From Cymodocea nodosa (lineage: Eukaryota > Streptophyta > Magnoliopsida > Alismatales > Cymodoceaceae), in contig CM072341.1 in NCBI GenBank assembly GCA_036874045.1, positions 7,948,501-8,012,500 of the forward strand: 64,000 bases of DNA, given 5' to 3'. The notes beneath the pieces are model-generated. The model was not told the DNA's origin and ran no database searches. It was given only the letters and a program-made list of their open reading frames with translations. Both the position numbers and the translations under genes were made by a program. Positions 30,606 through 61,207 of this stretch are shown piece by piece. Position 1 is the first letter of the stretch, and each line of letters begins with the position of its first letter.

Positions 30606-30619
30606 CTTGCCCCATACCT
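30606..30619 (-). other. Polypurine tract before G2 3' LTR
   Basis: The minus strand reads aggtatggggcaag immediately before TGTTTAGAAT. Upstream is gggactagcaaaattt, a sequence type commonly found before the PPT of plant gypsy elements. Confidence 0.65.
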
Positions 30620-31312
30620 AAATTTTGCTAGTCCCTTAGCAAACTAAGATCTAATTAATTGGTCTTTCTAAAAGTGCTAGAATTAATTCTTCCCTTTTTT
30701 CTTATGTTCAACATAAGAACTAGTATTATTATAGAGATATTCTGTATGTTTCAACAATCAACCTGCAAATACACTTAGAATATATGCAAATTACATACAA
30801 AGTATATCATCATCACATAGGTATTAATTATATTATCGTTTGTTCTTCTTTTCATCATCTGTCATCTTGAATTTTCCAATAAGATTTCTAGAAGAAATTT
30901 CAACAACATACGAATCAAAGTACAATCTAATTCAATATGATTAAGACAAGTAGAATAAAGAATTGTATCTCCATTAAAACAACTTCAAAAGTCAATTCTT
31001 AGATTCATATTTCAACAATTTTAGATAACAGAAAATATACTCGATTCATAAGATATCTGTATTTCACAAAACACTTGTATCTTTTCAGAATAGTATATGT
31101 ATTTTTGTACTTTAAAAGTTAATTTGACAAGCTTGAATCATACAAGTGCTTTCTAATATACCCATGTAACGAGCTTTCAATTAACAATCCCAGATCTGAT
31201 CAAGATCTTAGGTTGCCAGATTTTAAAAGTCCTTTTTCAAGTCAACAATCCTTACATACCTATCTACTCAAGTACAAAAGGCTCATGATCAAACAAGTCA
31301 ATATACTCTCAA

Positions 31313-31382
31313 AGTTTTTTTTTTTTTTCTTCTTTTTTTTCTTTCTTTCTTTCTTTTTTTTTTTTTTTTTTTTTTCTTTTTT
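31313..31382 (+). repeat. Poly-T / polypyrimidine tract
   Basis: About 70 bases of almost pure T with scattered C. It is absent from the otherwise homologous block near 38570, so it is an expansion specific to this copy. Confidence 0.9.
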
Positions 31383-31945
31383 CAATCACAACAAAAACAT
31401 TAATCACATACTGTATATGTACGTATTTCATTAATACAGATGCAATAAAATACCAATCTCATATAGTCCTGCTTCTATCATTTACTGAAAATATGAATCC
31501 ATAACAATAAGCTCATACTTTTTCTGTAGTTTAATAAGATCTACATATAAATCATTCTACAAGTTTAATAAATCAAATTAAATGTATCTTTAATCATATG
31601 TGTTTCATTTAATCTAGAATTCATATTTCAGCTCCTTCAGGACTTCAGATAATTTTTCTCATTAAGCATTCTGATTTCATTTTAAAATCGTGAAACTATT
31701 ACACTCATGAAATTCAAAAAAAACATAAGATACTATATCTAGATTTGCATAAATAGTAAATTCTATAGCATCTTATATAGTCTTCTAAATATAACATTCA
31801 AGTAGTTACAGTTTATAAAAATTTTACAATCTCAATTATCGGATAGCTACAGCAAGTTCATAAAAATTTTCAATTTCCACAAAACTTTGCAGTACCATTT
31901 TAATTCCTTTAATTAACAAACTTACATGGTTGTTACTTTAATTAC

Positions 31946-31989
31946 TTCCCCCCCCATACTTATATTTTGCATTGTCCTCAATGTAAAAG
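31946..31989 (-). other. Athila-type internal purine hallmark
   Basis: The minus strand reads cttttacattgaggacaatg, then tataagtatggggggggaag. A 'ttgaggacaatg...aagt(t)tgggggg' sequence is typical of the non-coding region after the coding part of Athila/Tat gypsy elements. It lies about 320 bp downstream of the F-box stop, so the F-box gene sits inside the gypsy element, where pol would end. Confidence 0.65.
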
Positions 31990-32308
31990 ATTTGACAATA
32001 AGTACAGTAATTGTAGCAAGCATGAATACAGTTTCATTGATTTAAAATTCAGGATAAGTAATCAGTTACATACCTTGTTTCGTTTGTATCTCCTTCTGCA
32101 TATTCCGATTTTTGATTCTGAAAAACTTTTGATTCACATATAAAAGCAGAATATATAACAAAATAACATTTAACAGATACCAACAAACTGGATTGATATT
32201 TTGTTTTTGTTTTTGTTGTTTTATAAAATAAACTAAAACTAAATTTTTTCTTTTTTTTCTAAAAATAAATGTAGACTACATACAACATTAAACACACAAA
32301 ATGACAGC

Positions 32309-32923
32309 TTAAGAACATGATTGAAAAGTAGAAACAAATGGAATAAACGTATCAGTCCAAGTAAACTTTTTAGGCATAATTCTTCTTGCTATTAATCTTG
32401 TTTTAATGCAGTTCTTGTTCCATCTTAATTTGTAAACTTGTAATATATTCTCAATGCTAAATACAAGTGTATTACCATTAATGAAATGAAACGTAGAAAG
32501 GGATCCTTTTCGATTCCAGGGTAATGTAGCAGTTTCTATTTCTACATCTATTTCAATATACTCCTCTTCCCACTTCCATTCATTCATGTCTTTCATAATC
32601 CATATTTGAAATTTCATCAATTCATCCCACCATCTTATCAGACATAAAGTAGGATCATCATATTCATTATACCACATCCCTATTTGAATTTTATCATATT
32701 CTACAGATGGTGGTTTAGCTATATCACTCGGTATAGGTAATATTTCTATAAAATTATCATCATAACTATCTATGCTTACAATGTATAAATTAGAACTAAA
32801 GGCAACTGATATATCTGTGACTAGATATATATATCCATCAAGTATGACATGCATGCTATTAATTAATGATTTATGTCCTACATATATCATAGTGTTTTTA
32901 GTCCACGATCTATTCAGAAAATT
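32309..32923 (-). pseudogene. F-box gene, C-terminal half (F-box-associated region)
   Basis: About 200 residues open to a stop at 32309, with the Trp/Ile/Tyr-rich strand pattern of plant F-box-associated (FBA-type) domains (for example WWDELMKFQIWIMKDMNEW). The first ATG in this half is an internal Met. Directly upstream is the C1b insertion site with TSD AAATT at 32919-32923; the reading frame continues in the N-terminal half at 59156-59685. The combined length is 379 codons including one stop near the start, normal for plant F-box proteins. Such proteins act as substrate receptors in SKP1-cullin ubiquitin ligases. The substrate cannot be told from sequence. Confidence 0.8.
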
Positions 32924-34700
32924 TGTAGGATCGTATGGCTACACAAGAAGGGGGTGAATTATGTATTTTTAATATTTTCTAAAATATAATTGAAACTTTA
33001 AAACACAAAAACAAGTCGAGACATTGTTTTCATAAAATCATTTTTATTCAAGGTTTCAATTACAATATACAATTCAATTCTACTCAAAAATTGTAGATGC
33101 AATTATATCTCGATACCATGTATCATCTAAACAATTTCATAACTACAAATAGAGAAAACTAATTTGAGGAATTTAAAACATTTCTCCCTATTTTAGATCT
33201 TTCTTCTTCTTCTTTTTCTTCTTCAACAATTTTTCAGTGACGAATATCTTGTCTTTCTCTACTTCACCGAATTTGCTTTCTTCTGATACTTTAAGTCTTC
33301 AATGACATAAATAATACCTGGTTCTGCTTCACTAAATTTTCTTCCACTTGATACTTCAAATATTCATCGACATAAATTTGAACTTTTCTACTTCACTGAA
33401 CTTTCTTCCACTTGAGAGATTTTCCCCAAGGAGGTGTTTTTGATCCCTGAAAAAGATTTTTCTTTTGGTGTGCAGGGATAGTTTGATCATCGAGAATTCT
33501 ATGCCTTTTATACTGTATCTTCATTTCATGCATATCCTTCACGTTTAATCACTACCAGTTTTCCACTTCTCCATGTCTTTTCTTTTTCCTTCATTGAAAC
33601 ACACACGTTCTAACCCACGTTTATATTTCGAATTTTCTTTAATCATCAGTCCTAGATCTCTGAAAAATTTCCTGCAAAATAAACATTCTCATCCAAAATC
33701 TTTCATCAAGCGTAATAAGAAATCGTTACTTTAATGTTTAACTAAACTAGTAACACAAGTATATAAATATAACTTAATGTTTCTAACTTAACGAGTTCCT
33801 CATGTGCCATTTCACATGACAAGTATTGTAGCTAACACAATGAACTAAATCTGTGGTGTTACGCTAACTCAACGAACCAGCATAACCTTTCTTTCGGAAG
33901 GTTAAATGATAACTCACCAAAAATAGTTTAAGTTTCAGATAGTTACGGTTGTAAGTCACCGAAAAACTCTTTATACCATAAAACTAATGAGACACGTGTC
34001 AAGACCTGAAAACATGACTTAAGTTATCTTTCGGATAGTTACGACTGTAAGTCTCCGAAAAACTTTAACTCACCGATTCAGTAATAAACAAATGTTTTTA
34101 TAATAAGAATTTTACCACATGCAAAAATAACAACTTAAGTTTATAACGCTAACTTAACGCGCTGCCTTAGTGTTCAATATAGCAACTCAACGCGTTTAGT
34201 TATGTTAACTTAATGAGTTAAACAAGTGCACCACACGTGATACAATACAACATTTGTAACTTATAATTTCACCACGTGTATAACACTAACTTAACGAGTT
34301 CGTCTCTTCTTTTACTCACTAACTTAACGAGTTATCATGTGACCTATTTTAACTTTTAAGCCTCTAACTTAACGAGTTCTCACGTGACCTCTATACAAAC
34401 AAAACTCTAACTTAACGAGTTGTCTAAACATGCACTGTTCATGATGATATAGTAGATATAACTTTAAAACATATCATGCTTTTCAATAAAAACACACGTT
34501 AACTTAACATTTAGTTAAATGAGAAATTAATGCAATGAAATGACTAGTTAATAACTTCAGATCCAATACAGACAAGTATTTATGCCAGTAAGCTTTTTCT
34601 GTATTAATTGATGATTTTAATTTCTTTTTACAAGCAATAGTAATTGAGCAAATATGATTATTTTCATTCAGCACACATCATCAAAACAAAATACTCAACA
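32924..34700 (-). repeat. 3' LTR of C1b
   Basis: 1777 bp; minus strand TGTTGAGTATTTTG...gatcctaca. About 200 bp longer than C1a LTRs because a module at about 33880-34085 (GACACGTGTC at 33991-34000, TTTCGGATAGTTA at 34029-34041, caccgaaa pairs) stands where C1a has the 32-bp VNTR. TATA box tataaaagg lies near 33508. Confidence 0.9.
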
Positions 34701-34716
34701 ATCTCCCCCTTTTTGA
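34701..34716 (-). other. Polypurine tract of C1b
   Basis: The minus strand reads tcaaaaagggggagat directly before the LTR start TGTTGAG. Confidence 0.9.
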
Positions 34717-35189
34717 TGATGACAAAACCATATTAAATCAATTATGAAATATGTTTAACTCAAGAAAGCACCTTCGTTGGGATAACTTTTAATTCAACAA
34801 CCCTTTTTGTTGACTTAAGTTCACTTAAGCTTATTTCTATTGTTTATGTAAATTTTACCTCTTAGAACTAAAACTCCTAGATGTCAATAATTATATATGT
34901 ATCAGTTTTCTAATTATCATCTATCAGAAACCATTTAAATATTATCTCCCTTTATAATATATGCAATTAAGATCATAATCATCTTTTTATAATATTTCTC
35001 CCCCTTTTTGTCATTAATCAAAAAGATAATTACAGAGAATATATATATATGTATAAGAGATATAATTACAATAACTCTTTTTGTAAACAAGAATAATAAT
35101 TGAACACATTTACAAAAAAATGTATTGTTCAATGAATCAAACAAGTAATACAAATAGTACATTTTGTATTCATAAACAAACAAAAACAG
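34717..35189 (-). other. C1b 3' UTR
   Basis: No gene. It is AT-rich and includes a second purine block (gacaaaaagggggagaaa near 35010) as seen in C1a and C2. The short frame across 34935-35183 is hydrophobic only because of T-richness. Confidence 0.75.
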
Positions 35190-37446
35190 TTATCGACCCC
35201 TCCTAAGTATATCACTTATAGCATTACATATTTTATCTCCTAGATGCTTAATATCATTTCTGATGTCATTAAGCATTGCATCTAAGTCAAGAGGTAGCTG
35301 GGTTTGCTGTTCTGCTTGAACTGAATAACTTTGTTGTTGTTGTTGTATATGGTCTATACAATCAGGTTGTTGTTGTCATTGAGGTTTATGCATGGCCTAG
35401 AATTTTTGCAATTCTATAATACTAAATGCTCTCATGCCTTTAGTTTCAAAGGGCTAGTTAGATAAATTCAATTGGCTTGCAAGGATTCTACATACAGCAT
35501 CACCATAAAATAACTTTGAACTCATATGCTGTAGTTGAGAAGTAAAAACATCAAACCAATTGATTTGAATTCTATTCAACAGGCCATAAGTTGCATATAA
35601 ACAGCTTCTGCTGACTTCCAAATTGTGTCCAACTCTTTGAAATAAATTTGCATGCAATATATTTGCAATAAACCTTGCCTCTGCATTTAGATTTTCCATT
35701 AATCTCATTTCAGAATATACATCTGGAATTTTTGATAAAGACTGAATGTTCCATTCCAATTGTCTAATCATGTCAAATCTGTTCGTAACAACAACACCTT
35801 CATTCTTTAATCCCAAAACTTAACTCAGGAGACAATATAAACTCCTGTTGATTTATTTGACTTTTCAGAAAATTTCCATTCTTGACCAGATTGCTATAAA
35901 AAGCTGTAATAAGCTCTTTGTATTGCTTCCATTTCATTCCTACTAGCAAGAATTGAATGAGGCCTTGAAACTCAAATAGATCCCTTATTACCATCAAACT
36001 TCTGAACTTTATTGGACGAGCATGCAGAATCTGACATGTAATCAGATTATAGTATTTCTACAATGCTTCTTCAGATCTAAAATGAATTGAATTACCTTGA
36101 ATTCGTAATACTATACACAAAGAAGGTGATACCTAAAGTCGTGATTCAGAGTTTAATTCATCTTCAGGAACCTTTTCTTCAAAATGAATGTTATGTTGTT
36201 CCTTTTCCAAAATATTATCTTGAAGCTGCTTAGGTAAGCTTGATTCTTCAACTTCAACTATGTTAGGAACATCTTCAATATGCTCAACATTCATCTGTTC
36301 AATCTCTATAGAATCTTCAGAGTTCAATTTTTCCACAAATTCTACAGCCAGTGTATCTGTCTGTAATTGTTTATTTTGTTCAACAGATATTGCCATTGAG
36401 TCATGTTGTGAATTCTTAGACTCTGCTTCTATAGATTCTAAAAAAGGCTAGTTGACTTTTAGCTCTTCTAGAGTCTTAACATTTTCAATATCTGCTACTC
36501 CAAACAATTCAACCTGTGAACTAGTTACTACCTCAACATTGTTAATTATATCTGCAATAACTTGTTCAATGTTGGGTGCCTGATGCTCTGATTTGGCAAT
36601 TTTTGTATCATCAAGACTTGTACTAATAGAAAAACTTGAGCTCATATTTGACTTGTATTTCTTCTCAAGCTTTCTAGCAAGGGAAAATAAAGTCTCATTA
36701 TCTTCATCAATTTCAATGTGTTCGGAACTGATGAGTTTATCAGATGCACAATAAGGTACAATGTCTAGACATACATTGTCCTTTGGAAATAAATTTTCAT
36801 CTGATTTTCCTTTTTCAATAGACTTTGATTCATTAGACATAATTTTTATGACTTTTCTTATTCTATAACATTTCTATTTCTCATCTTCAAGTATTGCTAT
36901 TTTCTTTTCAACTTGTTCCATAAAAGTTTTCTACTTTAATTCTTCTAAGGCACTCTCAATTGCTATAGCCTTTCGAAGACTATCAACTTTTGTTTTGTCT
37001 ATAATAATATTTGATTCTACTTGTTTTGAATACAAAGGGGTAGGGATAGTTGATTCATGCACTTCCTCAAATGCATGTAGTCTAGTACCATTTATTGGTA
37101 TTTGAGGAGTTCTAGTTGAAGAACCTACACTTTTTTCCAAATAATTTGCATACTGTTCGAGAAATGCAATCTCAACACATTTCATTCTGTATTCTCTATC
37201 AAATTTACTACGAATACCCATGTATGTAATATTTGCATCAGTATTTTGGAGTTCTTGTCTAACTTCATTCAGTATGCCTTCAGGAAAGAAATATTCACTA
37301 TAAATTTCTGCTAACCTTTTGTCCACTCGAAATATTTTCTTGAACCAAGTGCGTGGAACTTCATCATTCTCTATTTCTTTTCCTGTTGCATCTCCTCTGC
37401 TTTTGCCTTTTCCTCTGCCACAACCTTTGTAGAACTTGGAGACCAT
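35190..37446 (-). pseudogene. C1b accessory (post-pol) ORF, 'putative plant transposon protein'-like
   Basis: ATG at 37446 (MVSKFYKGCGRGKGKSRG), then a basic N-terminus, a helical segment (EYRMKCVEIAFLEQYANYL), a long acidic region, and a C-terminal domain with FEFQGLIQFL, ITAFYSNLVKNG, GLKNEG, FIANILHANLFQRVGH and NRIQINWFDVF. It ends with Gln runs and a helical tail at about 35190. This C-terminal pattern resembles the PF20167-type domain found in plant transposon ORFs; function unknown. The position after pol is that of the env-like ORF in SIRE elements, but I see no signal peptide or clear membrane segment. Broken by stops near 36930, 36850 and 36445, a frameshift near 35815 and others. 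Homologues: 23290-23664 and 62146-64000. Confidence 0.72.
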
Positions 37447-39053
37447 CGTCGCAGGTTGTAACAGCAACAAGCGAGAAAAAATTTTCTTGACAAAGTTTAC
37501 AAATAACCTAAGTGCCTGTGTAGTAAGTGTTTAAATAGGGTTTTAGGGGAATAACTCAACGTGAAGAGAAGTCAGGTTTAGATATTAAATAAATATTGAA
37601 TAAAGTTTATTCAATCACGATACTCGAAATATTCAAGTATAACTCGTTGAGTTAACTAATCGAATGAGTAAAACGGTGTCTAGAGGTAGTTTTACATGTT
37701 ACCGTATTTAACATAACGTCTAGTTAGTACACTTAAACAAGTTTCGGATGCTTTGAACTGAAACGTTCTGAAAACAACACACATGCTAAACTTAACATTA
37801 TCTTGAGAACATTTTAAACTATTTGAACATTTTTGTCCTTTGAATCTAAAATAGTTTGTTTGTCTTTTTAAATTATTTCATCAAGATTTTAAGAGGGCAT
37901 TAATTCAGATTAACCAAGATTTGTATTTTGAATTATATTAATCTGTTTTCGACATTGTGAATCCTCCCCCTACAAATATACTTCAAATATATTCAATCAA
38001 AATACAAAATATACTTGTAGTGACAATAGATGTTAAGTATAACTATACTTTTAAATTTTCTTTTCAAAAACTTCCGTTATTCTGACATCATCAAAAATGA
38101 TTTCCAGAATGAATTCCTACTATATATGAATCGAAACACAACTTTGAACTCAATATGATGAATTCAAGGAGAATAAAAGAAGGTATCTCAAATAAACATT
38201 TTCAAAAGTACTAATGTTGATTCAATAAATCAGTAGTCATATTGGTAGAAACTATATGTGATTCAAAGATATCTGTAATTAATGAAATAATTGTGCTTGT
38301 ACTATAAACTAAAGCGCAAATTTTATTTTTTATTTTTCAAAATAGTAAATATTCATAATTTTCTTTAAAAGTTAGTTTGAAAAGCTTGAATCATACAAGA
38401 GCTTTCTAATGTACCCGCATAATGAGCTTTTAGTCAACAATCCTAGATCTGATCAGGACCTTAGGTAGCTAGATTTAAAGAATCCTTTTTGAGGACAACA
38501 ATCCTTACATACCTATCTGCCCAAGTACAAAAGGCTCGTGATCAAATTGATCAATAAACTCTCAAAGATTTTCACTTTGTAAGCACTTTTCATTTTAAGC
38601 ACAATATATATGTATTCCATTAATACAGATGCAATAAAACACAAATCACATACAATTTTTTACTTCTATGATTGTACTGAGAATTTGAATCAGTTTCAAT
38701 AAGCTTATACTTTTGATTAACAGTTTAAGATGAGTTACATATAACTTATTCTACAAGTTTAATCAATTAAGTCAAATTTATGCAAGATCATATGCATTTT
38801 CCTTGATTCAAAGAAAACATTTAATCAAAATTTCAGAATGTCAGAAGTATTTAATGTTTTTCATTTACACTTCCACTTAAAATTGATAAACTACTCAAAA
38901 TCAATAAGATACTACTATGATTTTACAATAAATACATAGTATCTTAAGCAGTAGTTTAGATATTACTTTAGATATTTATGATAAGTATATAATATCTATG
39001 AGGTGAACAACATCATCAATACTATTTATCTTTTTATGTGGAGTTTAAGCATT
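37447..39053 (-). other. C1b spacer between pol and accessory ORF, with gypsy-related block
   Basis: No gene. About 38040-38900 is homologous and in the same orientation to the 3' non-coding region of the gypsy element G2 (about 30870-31900). The part at 37540-37720 contains aactcaacg/gttgagttaac motifs like the LTR arrays. Confidence 0.7.
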
Positions 39054-41681
39054 TTACACATCACATAGCCTACAAATACCTAAATTTAATCTAATGTTGC
39101 AGAATGTATTTTCGTCTAGAGGTTTTGTAAATATATCAGCTAATTGATTTTTACTAGACACAAATTCTAATTTAATTTTTCCTTTAATTATGTTATCTCT
39201 TAGAAAATGATGTCTAACCTCTATATGCTTTGCTCTAGAATGTAATACAGGAGTTTTGGAAAGATTTATTGTAGAACTACTGTCACAATAAATCTCAGTT
39301 GTATCATAAGATAATCCAAATTCTTCTAAAGTTTGCCTTATCCATAGAATCTGAGTACAACATAGTGCAGCAGCAACATATTCAGCTTCTGTAGTAGAAA
39401 GTGCCACTAGTACTCTTTCTATCAGATTTAGATCCTGCATAATCAGCATCAGTATATCCTATAAGATCTATTGAACTATCCTTAGAATAATACAATCTGA
39501 AATTTTTAGTTCCTTGTATATATCTAAATATTCTTTTAACTACAATTAAGTGTGATTCTTTAGGATTAGATTGAAATCTAGCACAAACACACAACAAACA
39601 TAATATCAGGTCTACTAGCAGTCAAATAAAGTAAAGAACCAATCATACTTCTGTATTTTCTTTGATATATGGATTTTCCTATGTCATCAATATCTAACTT
39701 TAAAGAAGTACTCATAGGAGTTCCTCGAATCCTTGTATCATTAAAATTAAATTTCTTAAGCATTTCATCTGCATATTTTTCCTGATTTAAAAATATACCT
39801 TTATCCATTTGCTTAATTTGAAGTCCTAGAAAATATGAAAGTTCTCCTATCATACTCATTTCAAACTAATTAGTCATCTCTTTAGAGAATATTTTTATCA
39901 ACTTATTAGAGGTTGCTCCAAAGATTATATCATCCACGTATATTTGAACAACAATCTAATCTTTACCATCTCTCTTAATAAATAGAGTATGATCCACTTT
40001 TCCCATGATATAGCCTTTTTCTATTAAAAAAGTAGACAATCTTTCATACCATGATCTAGGTGCTTGCTTCAAACCATATAAGGCTTTCTTCAATTTATAC
40101 ACAAAGTTAGGATTTTTAATATCTTCAAATCCAGGTGGTTGTTTTACATAGACTTCTTCATTAATTAAACCATTTAGAAATGCACTCTTTACATCCATTT
40201 GAAATAAGTTAAAATCCATATAACAAGCATAGGCCAATAATATTCTAATACTTTCTAACCTAGCCACAAGAGCAAATGTTTCATCATAATCTAATCCTTG
40301 TTCCTATGTATACCATTATGCAACTAATCTAGCTTTATTCCTTATAACTTGACCAATTTCGTTAGTTTTATTTCTAAAGATCCACTTTGTACCTATTATG
40401 GACTGATTTTCTAGTGGAGAGACTAATTCCCATACATCATTTTTGATGAATTGATTTAGTTCTTCTTGCATTGCCACTATCCAATTTTCATTAGATAATG
40501 CTTCTTGTATATTCCTTGGTTCCACCATAGAAACAAACATTCACATACTATTTAAATTTACTGAAGCTCTAGTTTTAACTCCCTCATTAATATTACCAAT
40601 GACTTGAGTAATGGGATGTGATGAAGAATAACGCCAATTTCTCTGATTTTCCTCAATATTCTCATCAACATTTGAAGGTACATCACTTTCATCATTAGTT
40701 TGATCATTTAAGTTCATATTTTTGATTTTCTCAGATAAATCATCAATCTCTCTATTGATCTCTAACTCTTTTGGAAGATTGATCAAATCATCATTATCAG
40801 CTCTAGATTTAAATTCTCTAAAAGAATTTTCATTGAAGCTTACATGGAGGGTTTCTTCAATAGTCCTAGAAGTCTTATTATATACTCTATAGGCTTTACT
40901 TCTAGTAGAGTAACCTACAAAAATTCCTTCATCCGATTTGACTTGGAATTTATCCCTTTTATCCTTAGTATTAAGAACAAAACACTTGCAGCCAAATGAT
41001 TTCATATAGGAAATTTTTGGAACCCTATTAAACATAATTTCAAAAGGAGTTTTATTAACATGAGGTCTTAAATGACTTCTGTTAATAACATAACAAGCTG
41101 TATTTACTACTTCAGCCCAAAGATTTTGAGGTAACTTATGTTCATTCAACATAGTTCTGGCCATTTCTTGAAGTGATCTATTCTTTCTCTCAACAACACC
41201 ATTTTGACACGGTGCTCTTGGAAAAGAAAATCTGTGATCAATGCCATACTCAATACAATAATTATCCATTTGATCATTATCAAATTCAATTCCATGATCA
41301 CTCCTAAGTTTTTGAATAGAGACACTATTCATTTTGAACAAAATTGCAAAACATTTTAAACTTTTCAAAAACTTCTGTCTTAGATGCTAGAAAATATACC
41401 CAAGTGTAACTAGAGAAGTCATCTACTAAAACAAATACATACCGTTTACCACCAAGACTTATGATTCTTGTTGGTCCAAATAGATCCATATGTATAAGTT
41501 CTAAGACTCTCTTGCTTGAAATATCAGTTTTGGATTTAAAAGAGTTTTTATGAAGTTTACCTAACTCACATGCATCACACATAAAGTCCTTTGAGTATTT
41601 AATCTTTGGTAAACCTCTCACTAAATGTTTTTTTGATAGTTTATGTAACAATTTCATATTTATGTGCCCAATTGTTCTATG
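39054..41681 (-). pseudogene. C1b copia pol: integrase, RT and RNase H
   Basis: Continues the integrase frame cut by C3: HRTIGHIN and CDACELGK (zinc-binding HHCC), HMDLFGP near 41500, LRSDHGIEF near 41310, NGVVERKN near 41200. RT: LFQMDVKSAFLNG near 40205, YGLKQAPRSWYE near 40080, YVDD near 39945. RNase H: ALSTTEAEY near 39405 and NQLADIFTKP near 39130, ending at 39054. Breaks: 2-nt loss near 41330, stops at 40541-40543, near 40315 and near 39955, and a deletion near 39400 removing the segment between DRKSTSG and ALSTTE. It is otherwise close to C1a and lets the missing C1a part be inferred. Confidence 0.88.
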
Positions 41682-41686
41682 CCACA

Positions 41687-47098: not shown

Positions 47099-47101
47099 AC
47101 T

Positions 47102-47406: not shown

Positions 47407-47411
47407 CCACA

Positions 47412-48820: not shown

Positions 48821-48833
48821 GCTCTAATACCAC
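48821..48833 (-). other. Primer binding site of C1b
   Basis: The minus strand reads TGGTATTAGAGCT from 48833, one base after the end of the 5' LTR at 48835. One C-to-T change from the usual initiator-Met PBS. Confidence 0.85.
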
Positions 48834-48834
48834 T

Positions 48835-50312: not shown

Positions 50313-52059
50313 TGTTAGGATCGATAGACTCACTAGAGGGGGGGTGAATGGTGAAAGTGTGTATTTTTAAAATTTTTTAAATGTTGAATCGAATAATTCA
50401 ACAAAAAATGAAATGAGATGAAACTGATATAATGCAAATTAACAGAGATAAAAAAACACAGCAAATTTTTAGGTGGTTCACCAAATTGGCTAGTCCACCC
50501 CCAAGGTTTACTTGGGCTTCACTGAGTGTATCAACACTTACACACTTACTTTCAGGTCAAAGCAAGAACCAACTACACAGAAGTTTTTAGGTAAAAACTT
50601 TAGTAAACCAACCTCTAGAGTTTTCAGGTCGAAACTCAAACCAACACTATATGTAGCTTTCAAGTTGAAGCCACGAACCAACAACTTTAAACCTTCAATG
50701 AGAGTTATGGCGCAAGAGCTTTTTCTGCAAAGGATCTTTTGAAAATTCTTCACTGTTTGTAGACTTGAGTGTGAATGGAATTTGAGTGTAGCACACTATA
50801 TATCTCTACCGTATATCTGTTGTCTGCATTTTGAATATATACTTGATATGTACAACGATCATATTTTCCTCCAACGGATGTATTCTACTATACTTAATAA
50901 GGATCAAGTCCCAATATGGCAAGTGACCGTTCAGAAAAACGTTTCAAGTCAACATATTGATTTTCCTGTTCTTTCAGATAGTTAGCTATGAAACTCTCTG
51001 AAGAGTAACTGTACTCACCGAAAGATCACTTATCCTTTATTGCCAGGTAGGATTCCAGAATATTTAAATGTGAGCTGTCATCCAATCGGATACTTATAAC
51101 TGTAACAAACTGAATAGTTGTATACTTGACTATGTCAAATTTCGGAAGGTTATCCTGTAACTCACCGAAATTCTTTAGGATTTCGGATAGTTATTTTTCT
51201 AACTCTCCGAAAACTTATTTGAACCACTGTTTGAAATTCTACACGTGGGAAATTCGATGACTTAAGTTTCGGATGGTTAAACTGTAACTCATCGAAACTC
51301 TTTTGAAATTTCGAATAGTTATCCTTCTAACTCTCCGAAAACCTATTTGAGCATCTGTTTCGATTTCTGCACGTGAAAAATTCACTAACTTAAGTTTCGG
51401 ATAGTTAAACTGTAACTTACCGAAACTCTCTTTTAAATTTCGGATAGTTATCCTAACTCTCCGATTTTCCCATTTAAACTTTCAACTACCAGCTTCCTCC
51501 ATTTTGCACGTGCGTAAAAAAATGACTTAAGTTCCGAAAAGTTATACCTGCAACTTACCGAAAAACTCGAATAGTTATCTAACTCTTCGAAAAGAAAACT
51601 CGGATAGTTATCTAACTCTCCGACAAGTCTTTTAATCTTCCGTTCTGTATTTCTGCACGTGGTTTATTGAATGACTTAACTTTCAGATAGTTATACCTAT
51701 AACTCTTCGAAAAGTCCATTAAGCTTCCAGATAGTTATCTCTTTAACTATCCGATCATTCAATCCCTTTAACTGTCTGATTAAATAACTCTCCTAAGGCT
51801 TTGTAAAATCGGATAGTTATTCTTTTAACTGTCCGATAGCATTGGTACTGCTTTAAATTTGCTCTTCGGATACTTAGACTTGTAATTGTCCGATTTTGTT
51901 GAATCTTCTTGATCTGTTCATCTGAAACCTTCTTGATCTTTTTATCTGTTTGGAAATAGTTCTAACAGCCTTCTGATCTAATGCAGTAAGACTTAACTAT
52001 GAAATACAATATATTTCCTCACATAGGTTTTGCATTATCAAAATACTCGGGTACTAACA
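50313..52059 (-). repeat. 3' LTR of C2b
   Basis: 1747 bp; minus strand TGTTAGTACCCGAGTATTTT...gatcctaaca. Its middle (about 50990-51900) is a dense array of GGATAGTTA, TAACT(C/T)(A/T)CCGA and GACTTAAGTT units separated by CACGTG-type sites (for example 51656-51661). Confidence 0.93.
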
Positions 52060-52427
52060 ATCTCCCCCTTTTTGATAATGACAAAAACCTTTACAATTAT
52101 TTACATGTATTTCACTCCCTAGTGTATTTCTATACATTTAGTCACACAAAGAAACATAAAACAAGAAATTAACACAACTATACTGACAATGAGGGATTCC
52201 TCCCCCTGACTTTGAGCAGACTTCTCCCCCTATCTGTGTGCTGAGTTTTTCTCTTTTAATTCTTGCTAGAAATACTGTGAGTGACCATATACTTGACAAA
52301 TTTTCAAATCCTTCTCCCCCTTTTTGTCATTATATAAAAAGGTGAGGACTATAAAACTGATATAACCTGCACGAGTAGGTTAGCAGAAAAACAAGCTCCC
52401 ATGTTGTGAGCTTGATGAAAAAAATAT
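52060..52427 (-). other. C2b 3' UTR and polypurine tract
   Basis: No gene. The PPT tcaaaaagggggagat (minus strand) abuts the LTR at 52060-52075. Three further ggggga blocks lie within 52195-52325, as in C2a. Confidence 0.85.
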
Positions 52428-53940
52428 TTAAAGATCTTGTAAAGTACATATTCCTAGATTTCGTCTAATATGATTAAAAGTTGACTCATTTAAAGGTTTG
52501 GTGAAAATATCTGCAAGTTGATTTTCCGTTGGCACAAACTTAAGTGAAATGTTCCCTTTCTCCACAAGATCTCTCAGAAAATGATGTCTGATCTCGATAT
52601 GCTTGGCTCTGGAATGAAGTACTGTATTCTTAGATAGACTGATTGCACTGCTGTTATCACAAAATATGATTGAATTCTGAATTTTCAGTCTTTAATCTAC
52701 TAGAGTTTGCTACATCCAAAGGATTTATGCACACCACAATCCAGCTGCAATATACTCGGCTTCAGTAGTAGATAAAGCTATACAATTTTGTTTCCTACTG
52801 AACCATGAGATTAAAGAACATCCAAGTAATTGACAAGTGCCACTGGTGCTTTTTCTATCAGATCTGCTCCCTGCATAATCTGCATCAATATAGCCTGTTA
52901 AAATTAAACTACTGTCAGCTGAGTAGAATAATCCGAAATCTTTTGTTTCTTGTAAATATCTGAAGATTCTTTTGACTGATTTCAAATGTGATTCCTTTGG
53001 TGATGCTTGAAATCTAGCACATAGGCATACATTAAACATAATATCTGGCCTGCTAGCTGAAAGGTATAACAGGGATCCAATCATACCTCTATATTGCCTT
53101 TGATCCACTGCAACACTTGAATCATCCATTTCTATTTTAATGCTTGAGCTTAATGGAGTATTTGCGGAATTGATGTTTTCATAACCAAATTTCTTCAACA
53201 TCTCTTTACAGTATTTTTCTTGGTTGACAAAGATACCATTATGCATTTGATGAATCTGTAATCCCAAGAAAAACTTCAATTCTCCCATCATGCTCATTTC
53301 GAATTTATTTTTCATCAAATTCTGAAATTCATGACAGAGATCTTTTGAAGTGGCTCCAAAAACTATATCATCAACATATATCTATACAATCAACATGTAC
53401 ACATCAAAGGTTTTGATAAACAAAGTGCTGTCCACTTTGCCTATAGAAAAATTATTTTCAATTAAAAATCTTTTCAATTTCTCATACCAAGCTCTAGGTG
53501 CCTGTTTCAAACCATATAGAGCCTTTCTTAGTTTGTAGACATGATCCGACTTGAGTTCATCTTCAAATCCAGGAGGTTATTTAACAAACACTTCTTCTTG
53601 AATTTCTCCATTTAAGAAGGCACTTTTCACATCAATTTGAAACAATTTTATCTTCATACTACTTGCAAAGGCAAGCAACATTCTAATAGCTTCAATCTTG
53701 GCTACAAGAGCAAAATTTTCTTCATAGTCAATACCTTCCTGCTGATTGTAGCCTTGTGCAACTAATCGAGCTTTATTTCTGAGAATGTTACCATCTTCAT
53801 CTAATTTGTTTTTGAAAATTCATTTAGTTCCAATGATGGATTTTCCTACAGGTTTTTCTATCAGTTCCCACACATTGTTTTTCTAAAACTGATTTAATTC
53901 TTCCTGCATGGCCATTGTCTAGTAGGTATCCTTACAGGCT
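52428..53940 (-). pseudogene. C2b copia reverse transcriptase and RNase H
   Basis: RT motifs SAFLNGEIQEEVFVK (near 53610), YGLKQAPRAWYEK (near 53510) and IYVDDIVFGA (near 53370) are preserved. The stretch 53318-52725 is open for 197 residues through MIGSLLYLSASRPDIMF and ALSTTEAEY. RNase H ends NQLADIFTKP...at 52428. Stops near 53885, 53820, 53580, 53383, 52722 and elsewhere, mostly of the CAG/TGG-to-stop kind. Confidence 0.88.
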
Positions 53941-55505
53941 TCATCTACTGATTTTGGCTCTATTTCTGACAAAAATGCACAAAAATTACAGATATCTTGT
54001 GCTTTGCTTCTGGTTTGTAGCCCTTTGGATATATTTCCAATAATTTGTTCCTCGAGATGATCAGATCTAAACTTTCAACTGTTATGATTCTGATATCTAA
54101 GGTTGAGATTCTGGTCTAACACTTGTGAATTGGTATTCTGCTTGTTTTTATCATCTTCAAAGTCTTTATTTTCACTATCATCATTAATCTTCAACTTTTT
54201 GAAATTTTGGAATAGATCTTCATCAAACTGAACATTTATACTTTCCTCCACTCTTCTATCTTCAACAAAATATACTCTGTAAGCTTTGCTTCTTGAGGAG
54301 TAACCAACAAGTATGGCAAGTTTAGACTTAGCATCAAACTTGTCTTTAGCATTTCATGTATTTAAGACATAACATTTGCATCCAAATGTCTTAAAATAGC
54401 CCACATTTGGAGTTTTATCGAACCAAATTTCAAAGGGTGTCTTATTCAATATGGATCTAATGTGAGTTCTGTTAGAAATGTGACAAGTTGTTCCTACAAC
54501 TTCTTCCTAGAGAAATTTAGGTAGATTTGTGGCACTTAACATAGTTCTAGCCATTTCTTGTAATGTCCTATTTTTTCTTTCCACAACTCCATTTTGAGCA
54601 GGAGTTCTAGGACAAGAGAATTCATGCAAAATTCCAAATGAATTGCAGAGGTTTTCAAATTCATAGTTTTCAAATTCACCTCCATGATCACTTCTAATTT
54701 TCTTCACTGTTAGTTCCTTCTGATTCTGAACTCTTATGCAGAAATTCTTGAACTCATTGCAAGTTTCATTTTTATGTGTCAAAAATATTACCCAAGTTAA
54801 TCTAGAGAAGTCATCAACAATAACAAAGGTATATTTTCGACCCCCTAGACTTGATACTTGAGAAGGACCAAACAAATCTAGATGTAGCAGTTCTAATGGC
54901 CTTTTGGTGGAAACAACACTTTTGCTGTAATGAGCAGTTCTCTTCTGCTTCCCTAGCATACACTCACTACACACTCTATCCTTCTTAAACGTGAGTTTAG
55001 GTAGACCCCTAACAAGATCACCCGTGGATAGCTTTTTGATATTCTTCATGCTAATGTGACCAAGTCTTCTATGCCACATCCAATCGTCTTCACTAGTTGC
55101 TACCAAACAAGAATTGCTTGCAGAATTTTCACATGGAAAGTTTAATGTATATATTGAGGAATTTCTAATACCAGTAAATTTTGTTTCATTTGTGGTAGGA
55201 TCAATAATGTAGTAGTTTTTAGCATTAAAAGAAACAATATAGCCTTTATCACTTAATTGTCCTACACTTAACAAATTTTGTTTTAATCCATTGACATGCA
55301 AGACATTCTCAATTATACCATTTTCAGATGTAATATTCCCTATTGTAGTTATTTTACATTTTTCATTATTTCCAAACTTAACGGATCCTGAACTTAAGTT
55401 TTTAACTGAGTCAAGAAAGCTTTTCTTACCTGTCATGTGCTTTGAGCATCCACTGTCCACAATCCATTTAGTTGATCGTGCTTGAAACTCCTTGTCACCC
55501 TGCAA
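53941..55505 (-). pseudogene. C2b copia protease and integrase
   Basis: A 332-residue open stretch (55505-54507) holds protease WIVDSGCSKHMT (near 55465), HHCC zinc region (WHRRLGHIS near 55075, CSECMLGKQKR near 54970) and integrase core with D, D and E sites intact (HLDLFGPSQ near 54880, IRSDHGGEF near 54690, NGVVERKN near 54590). It is the best preserved enzymatic region in the window. Beyond 54507 (stop within the NLPKFL-EEVVG segment) the integrase C-terminus and linker are fragmented by several stops. Confidence 0.9.
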
Positions 55506-55506
55506 A

Positions 55507-56200
55507 TCATACTGAAATTAAAGCTTTTGGTACCCAAATCTTCTTGGGTCCAGAGGAGTTAGTCCTTAAAACATTAAATCTATTGCCCCTTGGCAGCCAC
55601 ATATGACCTGATCTTCGTTTGATGGCAAACATAGTGGTGCCATCTCTATAAGATCGAATCACTCCACCACAATAAGGTATTTCCTTTGGTGTAGCATACC
55701 CTATGCCATATTTATTCCCATTTGATCGTTGAGATCCTATTATTTTATTTAATCCTTTTTGTCCTTGAGTAAATTTACATATAGTATTTTTCAAATCTGA
55801 TATAGTAGTTGATAGAATTTTATTTTCATCTTTTAATTTACAGTTATCACAACTATACTTATCTAAATTTGATTTTAGATTCCTATTTTCAACTATAGTT
55901 GATTCTAATTTAGCAAATGAATTTTCTAAGCACTGATTTAATCTTTTAATTTCAGTCTTAAAATCTCTACACTTCACATATAAATTATCTACAGTAGATA
56001 AAAGACTATTTATGTCTAGATCATCATGCTCACTTTCTGAACTAGAGAAAGTAGAGCATACCTCTTGTGCTGCAAAACAAACATTTGCTACAGCTTCTTC
56101 TTCAGACTTTGATGAACAGCTTGAAGAGCTACTGTCATTCGACGTAGCTTTGAGAGCCATCTTCTTTTTGTCTTTCAATCTCTTCTTCTTATCTCCTTGA
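55507..56200 (-). pseudogene. C2b Gag-pol linker with coiled coil
   Basis: 223 codons open from 56178: a Lys-rich start, a Ser/acidic low-complexity segment, a coiled coil (RLNQCLENSFAKLESTIVEN) and a tail with RSGHMWLPRG, followed by the protease. It matches 17511-18180 in C2a, so it is a conserved part of the C2 polyprotein rather than a separate gene. Confidence 0.78.
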
Positions 56201-57056
56201 TCCTCTTCTGTCTGAAATGGATAGAAGGTCTATATGTGCCCTTGCTTTTTACATTTGAAACATGTAGGGACACTTCTTTTAGAGTAGCTGGGCTTATTCT
56301 TTTTCTTCATGAATTTTCTAAAATTTCTTGCCAGCAATATGATCTGATCATCATCTGAGCTAGGAACTTCTTCTATAGATGGAAATGCTATTTCCTTTTT
56401 CTTTTCAGCTTTCTTTTCAACAGTTCCTTCTTGCTCTTTCCAATCCTTCATTTAAGCTTCGTGGGCTAGAAGATTGCCCAACAATTCTTCAACTGTATAG
56501 TTGTTAAGATCCTTGGAATCTTGAATAGATGTGGACTTCTGTTTCCACTCAACAGTTATGCTCCTCAGGATCTTCTGTACCTGTTCACGTGAAGAGAACT
56601 CCTTTCCCAAGCCTTTCAGACTGTTAGTGATTTCAGTAAATCTAGAAAACATTTCAATTATGTTTTCATTATCATTCATTTTAAACAGTTCAAGTATTCT
56701 TAAAGAATACTGATTTTTGAATCCTTAACCTGACTTGTACCTTCATGAGTAACATGAAGGATTTTCCACCCCTCATGAGCAGATTTACTTGTAGATACTT
56801 TATTATATTGATAAGCAGTTAGTGCATAATAAATAGCATTCAGCCCTCTAGCATCCAATTGGATGATTTTCTCATCCTCCTCAGACCAGTTCGAAATATC
56901 ACTAGTTGGAAGTGTAGTTCCAAGAACAACAGTCTTCCAGAGTTTAACATCTGAACTCCTAAGGAAGTACTCCATTCTATTCTTCCAATAATTATAATTG
57001 GAACCATCGAATAGAGGAGGTCTGTGGATGTTTTGTCCCTCAACAAATTGAGCCAT
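56201..57056 (-). pseudogene. C2b copia Gag
   Basis: ATG at 57056 (MAQFVEGQNIHRPPLFDGSN). Gag core as in C2a, broken by a stop near 56700 and again at 56452. The zinc knuckle near 56250 is damaged: its third spacer contains a stop (CAG to TAG) and the last Cys is Tyr, whereas C2a keeps that Cys. It cannot make a functional nucleocapsid. Confidence 0.87.
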
Positions 57057-57093
57057 AAATCCAGATGGTTAAATCTTATGAAGGATTAACCTC

Positions 57094-57105
57094 GCTCTGA
57101 TACCA
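57094..57105 (-). other. Primer binding site of C2b
   Basis: The minus strand reads TGGTATCAGAGC, a perfect initiator-Met-type PBS, two bases after the 5' LTR. Confidence 0.92.
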
Positions 57106-57107
57106 AT

Positions 57108-58855
57108 TGTTAGGATCGATAGACTCACTAGAGGGGGGGTGAATGGTGAAAGTGTGTATTTTTAAAATTTTTTAAATGTTGAATCGAATAATTCAACAAA
57201 AAATGAAATGAGATGAAACTGATATAATGCAAATTAATAGAGAAAAAAACACACAGCAAATTTTTAGGTGGTTCACCAAATTGGCTAGTCCACCCCCAAG
57301 GTTCACTTGGGCTTTACTAAGTGTATCAACACTTACACACTTGCTTTCAGGTCAAAGCAAGAACCAACTACACAGAAGTTTTTAGGTAAAAACTTCAGTA
57401 AACCAACCTCTAGAGTTTTCAGGTCGAAACTCAAACCAACACTGTATGTAGCTTTTAGGTTGAAGCCACGAACCAACAACTTTAAACCTTCAATGAGAGT
57501 TTTGGTGCAAGAGCTTTTTCTGCGAAGGATCTTCTGAAAATTCTTCACTGTTTGCAGACTTGAGTGTAAATGGAATTCGAGTGTAGCTCACTGTATATCT
57601 CTACCGTATATCTGTTGTCTGTATTTTGAATATATACTTGATATGTACAACAATCATATTTTCCTCCAACGGATGTATTCTACTGTACTTAATTAGGATC
57701 AAGTCCCAATACGGCAAGTGACCGTTCAGAAAAACGTTTCAAGTCAACTTACCGATTTTCCTATTCTTTCAGATAGTTAGCTATGCAACTCTTCGAAGAG
57801 TAACTGTAACTCACCGAAAGATCACTTATTCTTTACCACCGGGTAGGATTCCAGAATATTTAAATGTGAGCTGTCATCCAATCGGATACTTATAACTGTA
57901 ACTCACTGAACAGTTGTATACTTGACTTTGTCAAATTTCGAAAGGTTATCCTGTAACTCACCGAAATTCTTAAGGATTTCGGATAGTTATTTTTCTAACT
58001 CTCCAAAAACTTATTTGAACCATTGTTTGGAATTCTGCACGTGGGAAATTTGATGACTTAAGTTTCGGATGGTTAAACTATAACTCACCGAAACTCTTTT
58101 GAAATTTCAGATAGTTATCCTTCTAACTCTCCGAAAGCCTATTTGAGCATCTGTCTGGATTTCTACATGTGGAAAATTCACTAACTTAAGTTTCGAATAA
58201 TTAAACTGTAACTTACCGAAACTCTCTTTTAAATTTCAGATAGTTATCCTAACTCTCCGATTTTCCCATTTAAACTTCCAATTGCCGGCTTCCTCCATTT
58301 TGCACGTGCGTAAAAAAATGACTTAAGTTCTAGAAAGTTATGCTTGTAACTTACCAGAAAACTCAAATAGTTATCTAACTCTTCGAAAAGAAAACTCGGA
58401 TAGTTATCTAACTCTCTAACAAGTCTTTTAATCTTCCGTTCTGTATTTCTGCACGTGATTTATTGAATGACTTAGCTTTCGAATAGTTATACCTGTAACT
58501 CTCCGAAAAGTCCATTAAGCTTCCGGATAGTTATCTCCTTAACTATCCGATCATTCAATCCCTTTAACTGTCAGATTAAATAACACTCCGAAGGCTTTGT
58601 AAAATCAGATAGTTATTCTTTTAACTGTCCGATAGCATTGTTGCTGCTTTAAATTTGCTCTTCGGATACTTAGACCTGTAACTGTCCGATTTTGCTGAAT
58701 CTTCTTGATCTGTTCATCTAGAACCTTCTTGATCTTTTCATCTGTCTGGAAATAGTTCTAACAGCCTTCTAATCTAATACAGTAAGACTTAACTATGAAA
58801 TACAATATGTTTCCTCACATAGGTTTTGCATTATCAAAATACTCGGGTACTAACA
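57108..58855 (-). repeat. 5' LTR of C2b
   Basis: 1748 bp, same ends and same motif array as the 3' LTR at 50313-52059, with scattered substitutions between the two. The flanking AACAA and matching PBS confirm that the element inserted as one unit. Confidence 0.93.
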
Positions 58856-58860
58856 AACAA

Positions 58861-59155
58861 AACTTTAACTTAACGAGTTGTCTAAACGTGCACTGTTCAT
58901 GATACAGAAGATATAACTTTAAAACATATCATGCTTTTCAATAAAAACACACGTTAACTTAACGTTTAGTTAAATGAGAAATTAATGCAACGAAACGACT
59001 AGTTAATAACTTCAGATCCAATATAGACAAGTATTTATGCCAGTAAGTTTTTTCTATATTAATTGATGATTTTAATTTCTTTTTACAAACAATAGTAATT
59101 GAGAAAATATGATTATTTTCATTCAGCACACATCATCGAAACAAAATACTTAACA
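58861..59155 (-). repeat. 5' LTR of C1b, proximal part
   Basis: First ~295 bp of the C1b 5' LTR (minus strand TGTTAAGTATTTTGTTTCGA), separated from the rest by C2b. It matches 34406-34700. The first bases are TGTTAAG, as in the C1a 5' LTR. Confidence 0.92.
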
Positions 59156-59685
59156 AAATTATACACATTCAAGCATAAATCTTCATCCCAATTTCCTATA
59201 GGTCTCCAATAATATAATTTTTCAAGAATAGTCAAATTTTTATCAGAAAATATTAAAGTTGACCCACAATTTACAGTTGGTACTTCATATCTATTAGGTC
59301 TTCCTATATTCCATTCTTCTCTAGTTATAGGATTTCTTATCAAAATATCAAGTAATAGACTTGCATACCTTGGTCTGGTCCTATATATGATTAATCCTTC
59401 ATCCATCCCCATAACATGCTCTATTCCTTCTAATGTATTGGGTGGAATTCTAGTAGTTTCTTCCACCTTCAGATATTCATGGGTAATTGAACTACGATTA
59501 AATGACTTCCATATAAATCCATCTTTAATCTTAGTCATTTTTGCAGCTTGTAATCCCTGAAAATATTTTTCTCTAACACAGTCTTTAATTTCCTTTGATA
59601 CACAACACAGCCTGCACAGATCTTTAGTTGACAAGTTACTCAATACTTCCTTTAGTGCATCCAACAGTAATTACATCAATTCCAT
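59156..59685 (-). pseudogene. F-box gene, N-terminal half (F-box domain)
   Basis: ATG at 59685; an in-frame TAA at 59673-59671 is codon 5. The frame then stays open to the C1b insertion. Residues about 6-45 form an F-box (LLDALKEVLSNLSTKDLC, then RLCCVSKEIKDCV), followed by a segment leading to the FBA-type region (NPITREEWNIGRP). Joining at one copy of AAATT to 32918 keeps the frame, giving 379 codons to the stop at 32309. The F-box binds SKP1 in SCF ubiquitin ligases. The gene lies 187 bp downstream of a gypsy gag stop on the same strand, so it looks like cargo of that element. An independent host gene flanked by chance cannot be fully excluded. Confidence 0.82.
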
Positions 59686-59872
59686 TTGCTGATTCTGTAT
59701 AACACAAATAAAAATTTAGCAGAGACAAAAATTAACATAACTACTACACACCCTCGTGGAGTTAGGGCATAACTCAACAAACTAAGTTCGTTGAGTTAAG
59801 GACTAACTCTACGATACAACTACCTATAAATAAACTTATATATACATATATAGTTACTTCAGTTAAACTGCT
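59686..59872 (-). other. Gag/F-box intergenic segment of G2
   Basis: No gene. AT-rich with an inverted pair of the LTR-type motif (aactcaacgaacttagtttgttgagtt, about 59770-59800). A good plant splice acceptor (tttgtgttatacag) ends at 59695, ten bases before the F-box ATG. Confidence 0.55.
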
Positions 59873-61207
59873 TCATTCAGCTATCCTCCCAGAAGAGGTA
59901 TCAATTTCATTAACAGTTCTATTGACAAGGTTAGATACTGCTTGCATTAGCAATCCTCCAGTAGGTCTAACTTCCATTGATTCCTTCTGTCTAAGTGGTA
60001 TATTTCTATTCTGATTTTGAATTGCAGCATTTCCAAATACAAAATCCAGATGATTGTTTAATTGTTGGATTATCTTTTCTAATTTCTCTATTCTAGATCC
60101 TTGTTCAAGTAATGCTTCATAACTTATATTCTTCTCATTTACATTTTTTCCTCCCTGAAAATTATTGTTTCTCCAAGATAAATTCGAGTGATTTCTCCAA
60201 TTAGGATTATAAAAATTTCAAAAGTTATCTTTCTGGTTTCTAGCATAAATAATATCTAAATCATTAATGTTTGCATTCTTTTCTACTAGCTTTTGATTTA
60301 ATGATAACTCTTCTATTTTCTTTGTTAATTAAGTTAACTTCACTTCAAGCATAGTACTTGAATCTATCTCATGCATTCCTCTTGGCAATATTCTTTTATC
60401 TGCAATAGCTTCAGTCGAGTTTTCCCACTGTGTAGTTCTTTTTGTAAAGTTTTCTAAATAAGCCCATGCTTCTTCACTACATAATTTCAAAAATCCATTT
60501 TGACAAGTAGATTCTAATAAAGATTTCATTGAAACATCTATGCCTTCATAAATTATACCTATTAATTGTGCTTTACTCATTGCATGATGTGGACATTGAG
60601 TCAGTAAATCTTTCAAAATATTTCCAAAATGATTCACCCTGTTGTTGACTACACATTAATATTTCTTTTTTCTTTTTAATTGTTTGATGTGTTGGATAAT
60701 ATTTTTCCAGAAAAACAGAGTAAAATTCAGTCCATGTAGAAATTGAATCAGGCAATAGAGTATATAACCATCTCTTAGCTGTGTTTTTTAAAGCAAAAGG
60801 GATATATCTAAGTTTAATAGCATCTATACTCATGTTCGGCATTTTCATCATTTGACAAACTTCATTAAATTCTCTAAGGAAATAATAGGCATCCTCTCCT
60901 TCTAATCCATGAAAATGTGGCAATTGACTAATATAATTAGATTTCAGTTCAAACCTATCTCCCTCAAAGTTTGGCAATCGAATACATGAAGGTTCATCAA
61001 CTAATTCAGGATACAGAATTTCTCCTAATGGTTTTTCTACTAGAGCAGCCATCTCTACGTTCTCTTTTAAAGAAAGGTTAGCTACACCCCAAAGAATTTC
61101 GTTAAAGTCCAATTCAGAAACTGTTTTAGTACGCCTCTACGTTGAATATTCTTGGATAGGTGTTCTTACTAATTGTTTAGTGCTTAGAGAACGAGTCCAT
61201 GTGCTCA
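59873..61207 (-). pseudogene. Athila-like gypsy Gag (capsid) of G2
   Basis: ATG at 61207. The retrotrans_gag-type core is clear: LPNFEGDRFELKSNYISQLP, YYFLREFNEVC, LRYIPFALKNTAKRWLYTL, FLEKYYPTHQT, then KDLLTQCPHH and EAWAYLENF, and the FYNPNWRNHSNLSW signature typical of Athila/Tat Gag. It ends at a TGA at 59875-59873. Breaks: TAG at codon 24, a frameshift near 60620, TAA at 60329-60327, and a TGA before NFYNPNW (CGA to TGA). No CCHC knuckle is found before the FYNPNW signature, where Athila Gag normally has one. No protease, RT or integrase follows; the F-box gene does. Confidence 0.85.

Follow-up and report, generated by a model that had tools for sequence, protein, structure and literature searches.

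An F-box gene and a relocated gag in a Ty3/gypsy element

The 64-kb stretch of Cymodocea nodosa DNA analyzed here (the window; C13:7948501-8012500) contains on its minus strand a long terminal repeat (LTR) retrotransposon with a capsid gag gene, an F-box gene, a polypurine tract (PPT) and a 3′ LTR (Table 1). The element continues past the window edge, so only part of it is visible in the 64 kb, and it was originally predicted to be a gag-only, non-autonomous element with an F-box gene in place of pol. The locus directly past the right window edge (L027) contains, on the same strand as gag, a zinc-knuckle open reading frame (ORF; 5613-4525) and a protease-type ORF (4341-3514), both recognized by eye, with nothing above cut-off in Pfam for either. 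These are followed by a reverse transcriptase (RT)/RNase H region (3342-2338; RVT_1 82.9 and RT_RNaseH 116.9 bits) and an integrase fragment (2229-1774) assigned by its resemblance to the integrase of a complete copy, A12. The 5′ LTR of the window copy is also in L027, with its outer end at 7899, such that the copy extends from C13 8,020,399 down to window position 28410. Its outer flanks are GGGCG and GGGCA (four of five positions matching), and its 3′ and 5′ LTRs differ at 127 of 2,163 sites (Kimura two-parameter [K2P] distance 0.062). Because pol and the 5′ LTR lie directly past the window edge, the view that no pol is present and that the F-box gene replaces it fails; a 64-kb view can make a pol-bearing element pass for a gag-only one.

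Two complete copies, A12 (C1) and B16 (C16), are ~17 kb each when read LTR to LTR, are colinear over 13.7 kb at 93%, and are bounded by exact target-site duplications (TSDs; AGTAG/AGTAG and ATTGT/ATTGT, respectively). The order in A12 is LTR, primer-binding site (PBS), zinc knuckle/protease, RT/RNase H, integrase (rve 56.7 and H2C2 39.8 bits), extra ORF region, capsid, F-box, 1.7 kb, PPT and LTR; the zinc knuckle, protease, RT, RNase H and integrase are all retained in the 5′ ORF. The first open frame starts no more than ~40 nt from the PBS and reaches the zinc knuckle within ~150 nt, so near the PBS that there is no room for a capsid in front. Both A12 and B16 have the PBS TGGTGYMRTTGCYGGGGA directly after the 5′ LTR, presumably of the tRNA-Asp type. 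The domain order (RVT_1, RT_RNaseH, rve), the TG...CA ends and the short TSDs are those of Ty3/gypsy elements. The window copy agrees closely with A12, being colinear at 93% from 64000 to 59155 and having a 3′ LTR that is 92% identical to the A12 LTR. The extra ORF region of A12 has a weak match to PF20167 (25.5 bits; cut-off 45), and no match to PF03078 (env-like/Athila ORF-1) was found in the two pieces of this region that were scanned.

The family is therefore a pol-bearing, Athila-like Ty3/gypsy family and not a gag-only parasite; membership among gag-only (TR-GAG-like) elements was considered and set aside, as pol is present in both the window copy and A12. It has two innovations: a capsid gag in the position of env, 3′ of integrase, which had been overlooked in the original prediction, and a complete, 378-codon plant-type F-box gene after gag. 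Much of what had been read within the window is borne out, including the capsid gag, the F-box gene in two pieces, and the insertion separating them, which is flanked by a perfect AAATT duplication (32919-32923 and 59156-59160). The ttgaggacaatg...gggggggg motif, presumably an Athila hallmark (the earlier reader's label), was re-read in the sequence, and the PPT is present, as is the LTR starting at 30605, whose other end is now placed at 28410. An F-box gene does lie between the LTRs of a gag-bearing retrotransposon in many copies, and both further gag plus F-box copies and outer TSDs, which had been proposed as checks, are found.

Table 1. Features of the F-box element within the window.
Feature	Coordinates	Strand	Evidence and remarks
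3′ LTR of the F-box element	28410-30605	-	TG...CA ends; 2,196 bp
PPT	30606-30619	-	Adjoins the 3′ LTR; read from the sequence; similar tract at the same place in A12 and B16
ttgaggacaatg...gggggggg motif	31946-31989	-	Read from the sequence
F-box gene, 3′ part (F-box-associated domain)	32309-32923	-	ORF; TIGR01640 34.4 bits (cut-off 37.9)
Nested insertion splitting the F-box gene	32924-59155		TG...CA ends; 26.2 kb
F-box gene, 5′ part (F-box domain)	59156-59685	-	PF00646 33.1 bits (cut-off 20.5), ORF 59119-59664
gag/F-box spacer with candidate 3′ splice site TTTGTGTTATACAG	59686-59872	-	Alignment of copies
Capsid gag, degraded in the window copy	59873-61207	-	PF03732 Retrotrans_gag 48.2 bits for 60573-61112
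Extra ORF region (integrase-gag interval)	61208-64000	-	Runs off the window edge

Additional pieces of the F-box family are present elsewhere in the window. Positions 1-6611 contain LTR stretches at ~3540-1380 and 5343-3542 (minus strand) and an internal stretch at 5345-6611 (plus strand), and a plus-strand LTR of the same family (26651-28409) abuts the 3′ LTR end of the F-box element, which therefore seems to have inserted in an older LTR of its own family. ORFs within the nested insertion have a copia-type look by eye. In its minus-strand stretch 35454-38794, positions 37969-38794 share 71% similarity with the 3′ portion of the F-box element, and ORF 35457-35816 has a weak PF20167 match (14 bits).

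Gene order across the genome and a second family

A genome search with the N-terminal half of the F-box gene yielded 5,324 candidates, of which the 150 scored are the window copy and 149 others at 83-92% identity. Searches with capsid and integrase yielded 5,903 and 11,655 candidates, respectively, numbers that take in other families and are not copy numbers. The capsid starts 1,427-1,463 nt before the F-box start in all nine copies fetched, and their nine 20-kb loci, most starting near the 5′ ORF, have no sense capsid match besides the one preceding the F-box. Among 20 copies sampled at steps down the F-box list, 16 have a sense capsid at the expected place.

Pairing of the full lists of 150 capsid, 150 integrase and 150 F-box rows gives the same order. 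Seven of nine same-strand capsid-to-F-box pairs within 20 kb are separated by 1,437-1,456 nt (the other two by -5,670 and 13,127); the capsid is downstream of integrase in 14 of 14 pairs, 11 of them at 4,658-5,373; and all six integrase-to-F-box pairs fall at 6,189-6,444. Opposite-strand pairs number two for capsid/F-box, three for integrase/capsid and two for integrase/F-box. Because this spacing is fixed in many copies, we rejected the idea that the F-box belongs to a neighboring host gene hit by the element. The gene has the attributes of an additional ORF, occurring in many copies at the same place with a conserved frame, although conservation is moderate and is null when all changes are counted. 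One diverged copy, L079, contains an LTR, the gag tail, the F-box gene and the 3′ region, all but the LTR being colinear with A12 at 75%. The idea that this copy is gag-less was dropped; its flanks show the LTR joined to the gag tail and F-box, and it is thus read as an older element with an internal deletion.

A12 is itself situated in the 5′ LTR of a different element on C1 (family 2; L018 5128-10000 and L051 1-4520), which has LTR pieces 94% and 98% alike, a TTTAT/TTTAT duplication, the PBS TTGGCACCGTTGTCGGGGA and a ggggggg PPT. Its 7.8-kb internal region is ordered zinc knuckle/protease, RT, RNase H, integrase and capsid (Retrotrans_gag 67.2 bits), and has no F-box match at E < 1. Compared with the F-box family, its RT-integrase DNA is 68% identical and its capsid protein 45-56% identical. 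Genome-wide pairing for family 2 used rows 1-66 of the 150 for capsid (81-99% identity, the other 84 being at 44-51%) and rows 1-115 of the 150 for integrase (74-100%, the 35 left out being mostly at 59-66%, at least one of which, C5:4955831 at 72%, would add a pair). For 50 of the 66 capsid rows, the capsid follows the integrase match start by 1,140-1,346 nt, and for one more it does so by 14.3 kb; 15 rows have no partner in the integrase list, and in none of the 66 is a capsid located before integrase on the same strand within 15 kb. In several family-2 rows the frame stays open for ~1,490 aa across integrase or for 454 aa across capsid, and the gag-after-pol order is thus not a product of decay. 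A protein from a Joint Genome Institute (JGI) metagenome, P0121, shows by eye a zinc-knuckle-like motif close to its N-terminal end, after which come the same linker and protease motifs. This suggests that a capsid-less 5′ ORF also occurs in another genome, with the longest P0121 contig, at 2,210 bases, limiting how far upstream of the ORF it reaches.

The F-box gene: relatives, decay and constraint

A natural uninterrupted copy of the F-box gene encodes 378 residues, with an N-terminal F-box domain that scores 25.1-33.1 bits against PF00646 in three copies (cut-off 20.5). Judged by its sequence, the product is read as a plant-type F-box protein whose second domain has diverged, and it may mark other proteins for destruction. 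The window copy has an in-frame stop at codon 5; its two pieces were handled separately, and 32309-32923 covers 612 of the 1137 positions of the reference gene. The candidate acceptor TTTGTGTTATACAG is nine bases upstream of the F-box ATG, and all 10 copies aligned retain its AG. The predicted fold of the C-terminal half alone (mean pLDDT, the predicted local distance difference test score, of 33) was not used.

No F-box relative was found at E ≤ 1e-5 among 526 candidates from a 5.8-billion-protein collection that is rich in plant retroelement proteins (7,989 RT matches, with all of those carrying an organism name among the 120 listed being plants), none at E ≤ 1 in the PDB, and none in viral contigs. 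A PF07734 search of the genome for a host progenitor gave no match anywhere, controls included, and is hence uninformative. In a PF00646 search, 150 of 4,219 candidates were scored and eight of these were read (the top row and seven with long frames); seven are element F-boxes that fall in several subfamilies (80-87% for six of them, 63% over 378 residues for L079), and the eighth, L072, is an F-box gene unrelated to these (26% over 42 aa; E 0.23 and 1.6). These searches neither found nor excluded a host progenitor.

Stops recur at F-box codons 43, 192, 311, 313 and 364, in three to seven copies each, and are either inherited by subfamilies or the result of repeated C>T/G>A decay. Transitions make up most of the changes between paired LTRs in the F-box family (112 of 122 in A12, and 95 of 110 and 114 of 127 in the others), compared with 33 of 45 in family 2; together with the recurrent stops this is what decay through C>T and G>A changes would produce. 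K2P distances taken as clocks give an impossible nesting order, with A12 (0.063) residing inside a family-2 LTR (0.030), and we therefore quote no dates from them. Transversions alone give the right order (10 of 2,045 sites in A12 and 12 of 1,533 in family 2).

Selection was evaluated as omega, the ratio of nonsynonymous to synonymous rates, with C>T and G>A changes left out of the within-family values except where noted. The C-terminal part of the F-box gene, which was not used for ranking copies, has an omega of 0.64 (35 rows, p 0.01) and of 0.61 in the 20 systematically sampled copies (p 0.022), with wrong frames at 0.96-1.28. The other regions were tested with 9 to 14 rows. RT/RNase H has an omega of 0.46 (p 0.0002), two capsid pieces 0.52 (p 0.07) and 0.45 (p 0.02), two protease pieces 0.80 (not significant) and 0.52, and integrase 0.71 (not significant; wrong frames 0.71-0.90). 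ORFx has a value of 0.45, and the PF20167-like ORF of the extra ORF region one of 0.23, the lowest measured. The 3′ noncoding control gives 0.93-1.19; the region 4800-5300 of c1_12.96, meant as a 5′ control, behaves as coding and was not used as one.

The extra ORF region (4700-7270 of the c1_12.96 locus, L017) is also locally more diverged than its neighbors, at 79% in one copy pair. This higher divergence, together with its having the lowest omega, suggests exchange between elements.

Between F-box subfamilies, the true-frame omega is 0.24-0.53 with dS (synonymous divergence) up to ~0.66 (20 of 55 pairs). For the codons after the F-box domain, L079 against nine others gives 0.35-0.45, with wrong frames at 0.50-0.92. 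The F-box gene thus appears, if not beyond doubt, to be under moderate purifying selection, within the limits observed for gag and pol, most clearly so in L079, the most diverged copy.

Proposed function of the F-box gene and comparison with known systems

F-box proteins recruit SKP1 through an N-terminal F-box while the remainder binds the substrate. We consider it probable that this pol-bearing Ty3/gypsy family, with gag 3′ of integrase, uses its F-box protein as an SCF (SKP1-cullin-F-box) adaptor on the element's own behalf, produced from a spliced or subgenomic RNA. Full-length RNA would be translated to the pol polyprotein, and gag and F-box would be expressed from spliced or otherwise subgenomic RNAs, the latter perhaps via the acceptor just before its ATG, whose role in splicing is putative. 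The F-box protein would bind SKP1 and act in an SCF complex to remove a protein that limits the element, most plausibly a host defense or silencing factor and less likely its own Gag, with the sequence favoring neither. The anatomy, the many copies, the fixed gene order and the moderate conservation of the frame are observed; the RNA expression, the SKP1 binding and the target are inferred. Splicing in a plant element is reported for barley Bagy2 in excerpts of PMC7264820.

Several observations weigh against this interpretation. A capsid was not seen at the expected place in four of the 20 sampled copies, only one of which (L046) is free of stops and frameshifts in its F-box gene, and sampling was from a list ordered by similarity to the F-box, with the nine fetched copies chosen for long frames. 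When all changes are counted, the true frame is not distinguishable from wrong frames, and constraint within the family appears only once C>T and G>A changes are removed; transversions alone give an omega for the C-terminal part of 0.78 and 0.66, neither significant (p 0.16-0.30). Wrong-frame omega between subfamilies is 0.38-1.14, overlapping that of the true frame in closer pairs, and for the codons after the F-box domain ten other pairs range from 0.26 to 0.75 (mean 0.46; wrong-frame means 0.69 and 0.60). The second domain also scores low, with TIGR01640 matches of 28.9-34.9 bits (E 6.6e-7 to 9.7e-9) under the curated cut-off of 37.9, and FBA_1 matches of 16.2-16.8 bits in two copies (cut-off 21.1) and none listed in a third (E ≤ 0.1).

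A broader proposal, which we advance only tentatively, is of a lineage with inverted order in which pol comes first and Gag is made from a downstream gene, probably via spliced RNA, one branch having then gained an SCF adaptor that degrades a restriction or silencing factor of the host and multiplied to very high copy number. On the established view, LTR retrotransposons require a large excess of Gag, which the first gene supplies; with gag placed after pol in two families, how the Gag:Pol ratio is controlled becomes a question that can be tested. The conserved F-box of an abundant element is similarly a concrete candidate antagonist of host protein-level or silencing control, and an internal comparison is at hand in the related family that has the same order without the F-box.

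It is somewhat doubtful that the element's own proteins, through turnover of Gag or integrase for instance, are what the F-box protein acts on rather than a host factor. The gene is directly behind gag, with which it may share expression, and its constraint is within the range of gag, whereas the viral precedent, polerovirus P0, acts on host silencing. P0 is likewise an F-box protein encoded by a parasite, in its case an RNA virus.

The SCF-adaptor reading also has to be set against the F-box being a passive passenger that an active lineage picked up once and multiplied along with itself, without benefit to the element. We regard this as unlikely, even though 19 of the 20 sampled copies have stops or frameshifts, the test with all changes is null, constraint is milder than on RT/RNase H, and true and wrong frames overlap in closer subfamily pairs. 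Against it, frame-specific constraint emerges when deamination-type changes are left out, omega between subfamilies is low at considerable dS, and long open frames persist in several subfamilies.

It is very improbable that gag and F-box form an older element in its own right that became inserted between integrase and the 3′ LTR, making the order accidental. The two genes do form a compact module that could have originated by insertion, but the LTRs are the sole repeats of at least 100 bp in self-comparisons of A12 and B16, no capsid precedes the 5′ zinc knuckle, and family 2 has the same order without an F-box and with a diverged capsid; nesting could at most describe how the order arose long ago. 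The model of a non-autonomous gag plus F-box element, prompted by there being no pol beside gag on that strand within the window, is refuted for the window copy by what lies directly past the edge and, with A12 and B16 holding pol, gag and F-box between the same LTRs with exact TSDs, has virtually no likelihood for the family.

The F-box family resembles Athila in its TG...CA LTRs, its large size and its additional ORFs before the 3′ LTR, and its PBS (tRNA-Asp type) and capsid are presumably of the Athila kind. It is unlike Athila in having an F-box gene and in that its capsid gag is 3′ of integrase; since the capsid is found only there rather than first, we do not file it as a canonical Athila. 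TR-GAG elements keep gag and are mobilized, as is also so for gag-only Athila elements; the F-box family differs from both by having pol. Passages of PMC2410132 give gag, pol and env as ORF1, ORF2 and ORF3 of Athila and document both gag-only and gag plus env forms. Excerpts of PMC6317226 list tRNA-Asp among non-chromovirus primers, assign GAG or GAG-PROT to the first ORF of two-ORF elements, and single out the plant mobile domain, Transposase_28 and Athila ORF-1 as the chief extra domains.

Other plant LTR retrotransposons, as outlined in portions of PMC7264820, likewise have an additional ORF in sense orientation that stands downstream of pol and ahead of the 3′ LTR in many copies, but here that ORF is an F-box gene and is behind a relocated gag. 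No F-box is named as an extra domain in the available portions of PMC7264820 or PMC11963269. A screen of 121 angiosperm genomes passed 15 extra domains through its filter, and F-box is not among the nine named, the word being absent from the main text, so far as the accessible version of PMC9289625 extends. The open-access literature searched (mostly top-ranked results, and few subscription papers) contains neither an F-box gene in an LTR retrotransposon nor gag after pol, and the gag-after-pol order is as unusual as the F-box cargo. A parallel in kind is with orchid Gypsy elements, likewise a large Gypsy lineage keeping a host-type domain, although theirs is an AlkB-type m6A demethylase, proposed in excerpts of PMC9289625 to counter host surveillance, and not an F-box. 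If the F-box protein does antagonize a host factor, the retrotransposon would carry capsid and host antagonist together as a late unit, analogous to the accessory genes of complex retroviruses.

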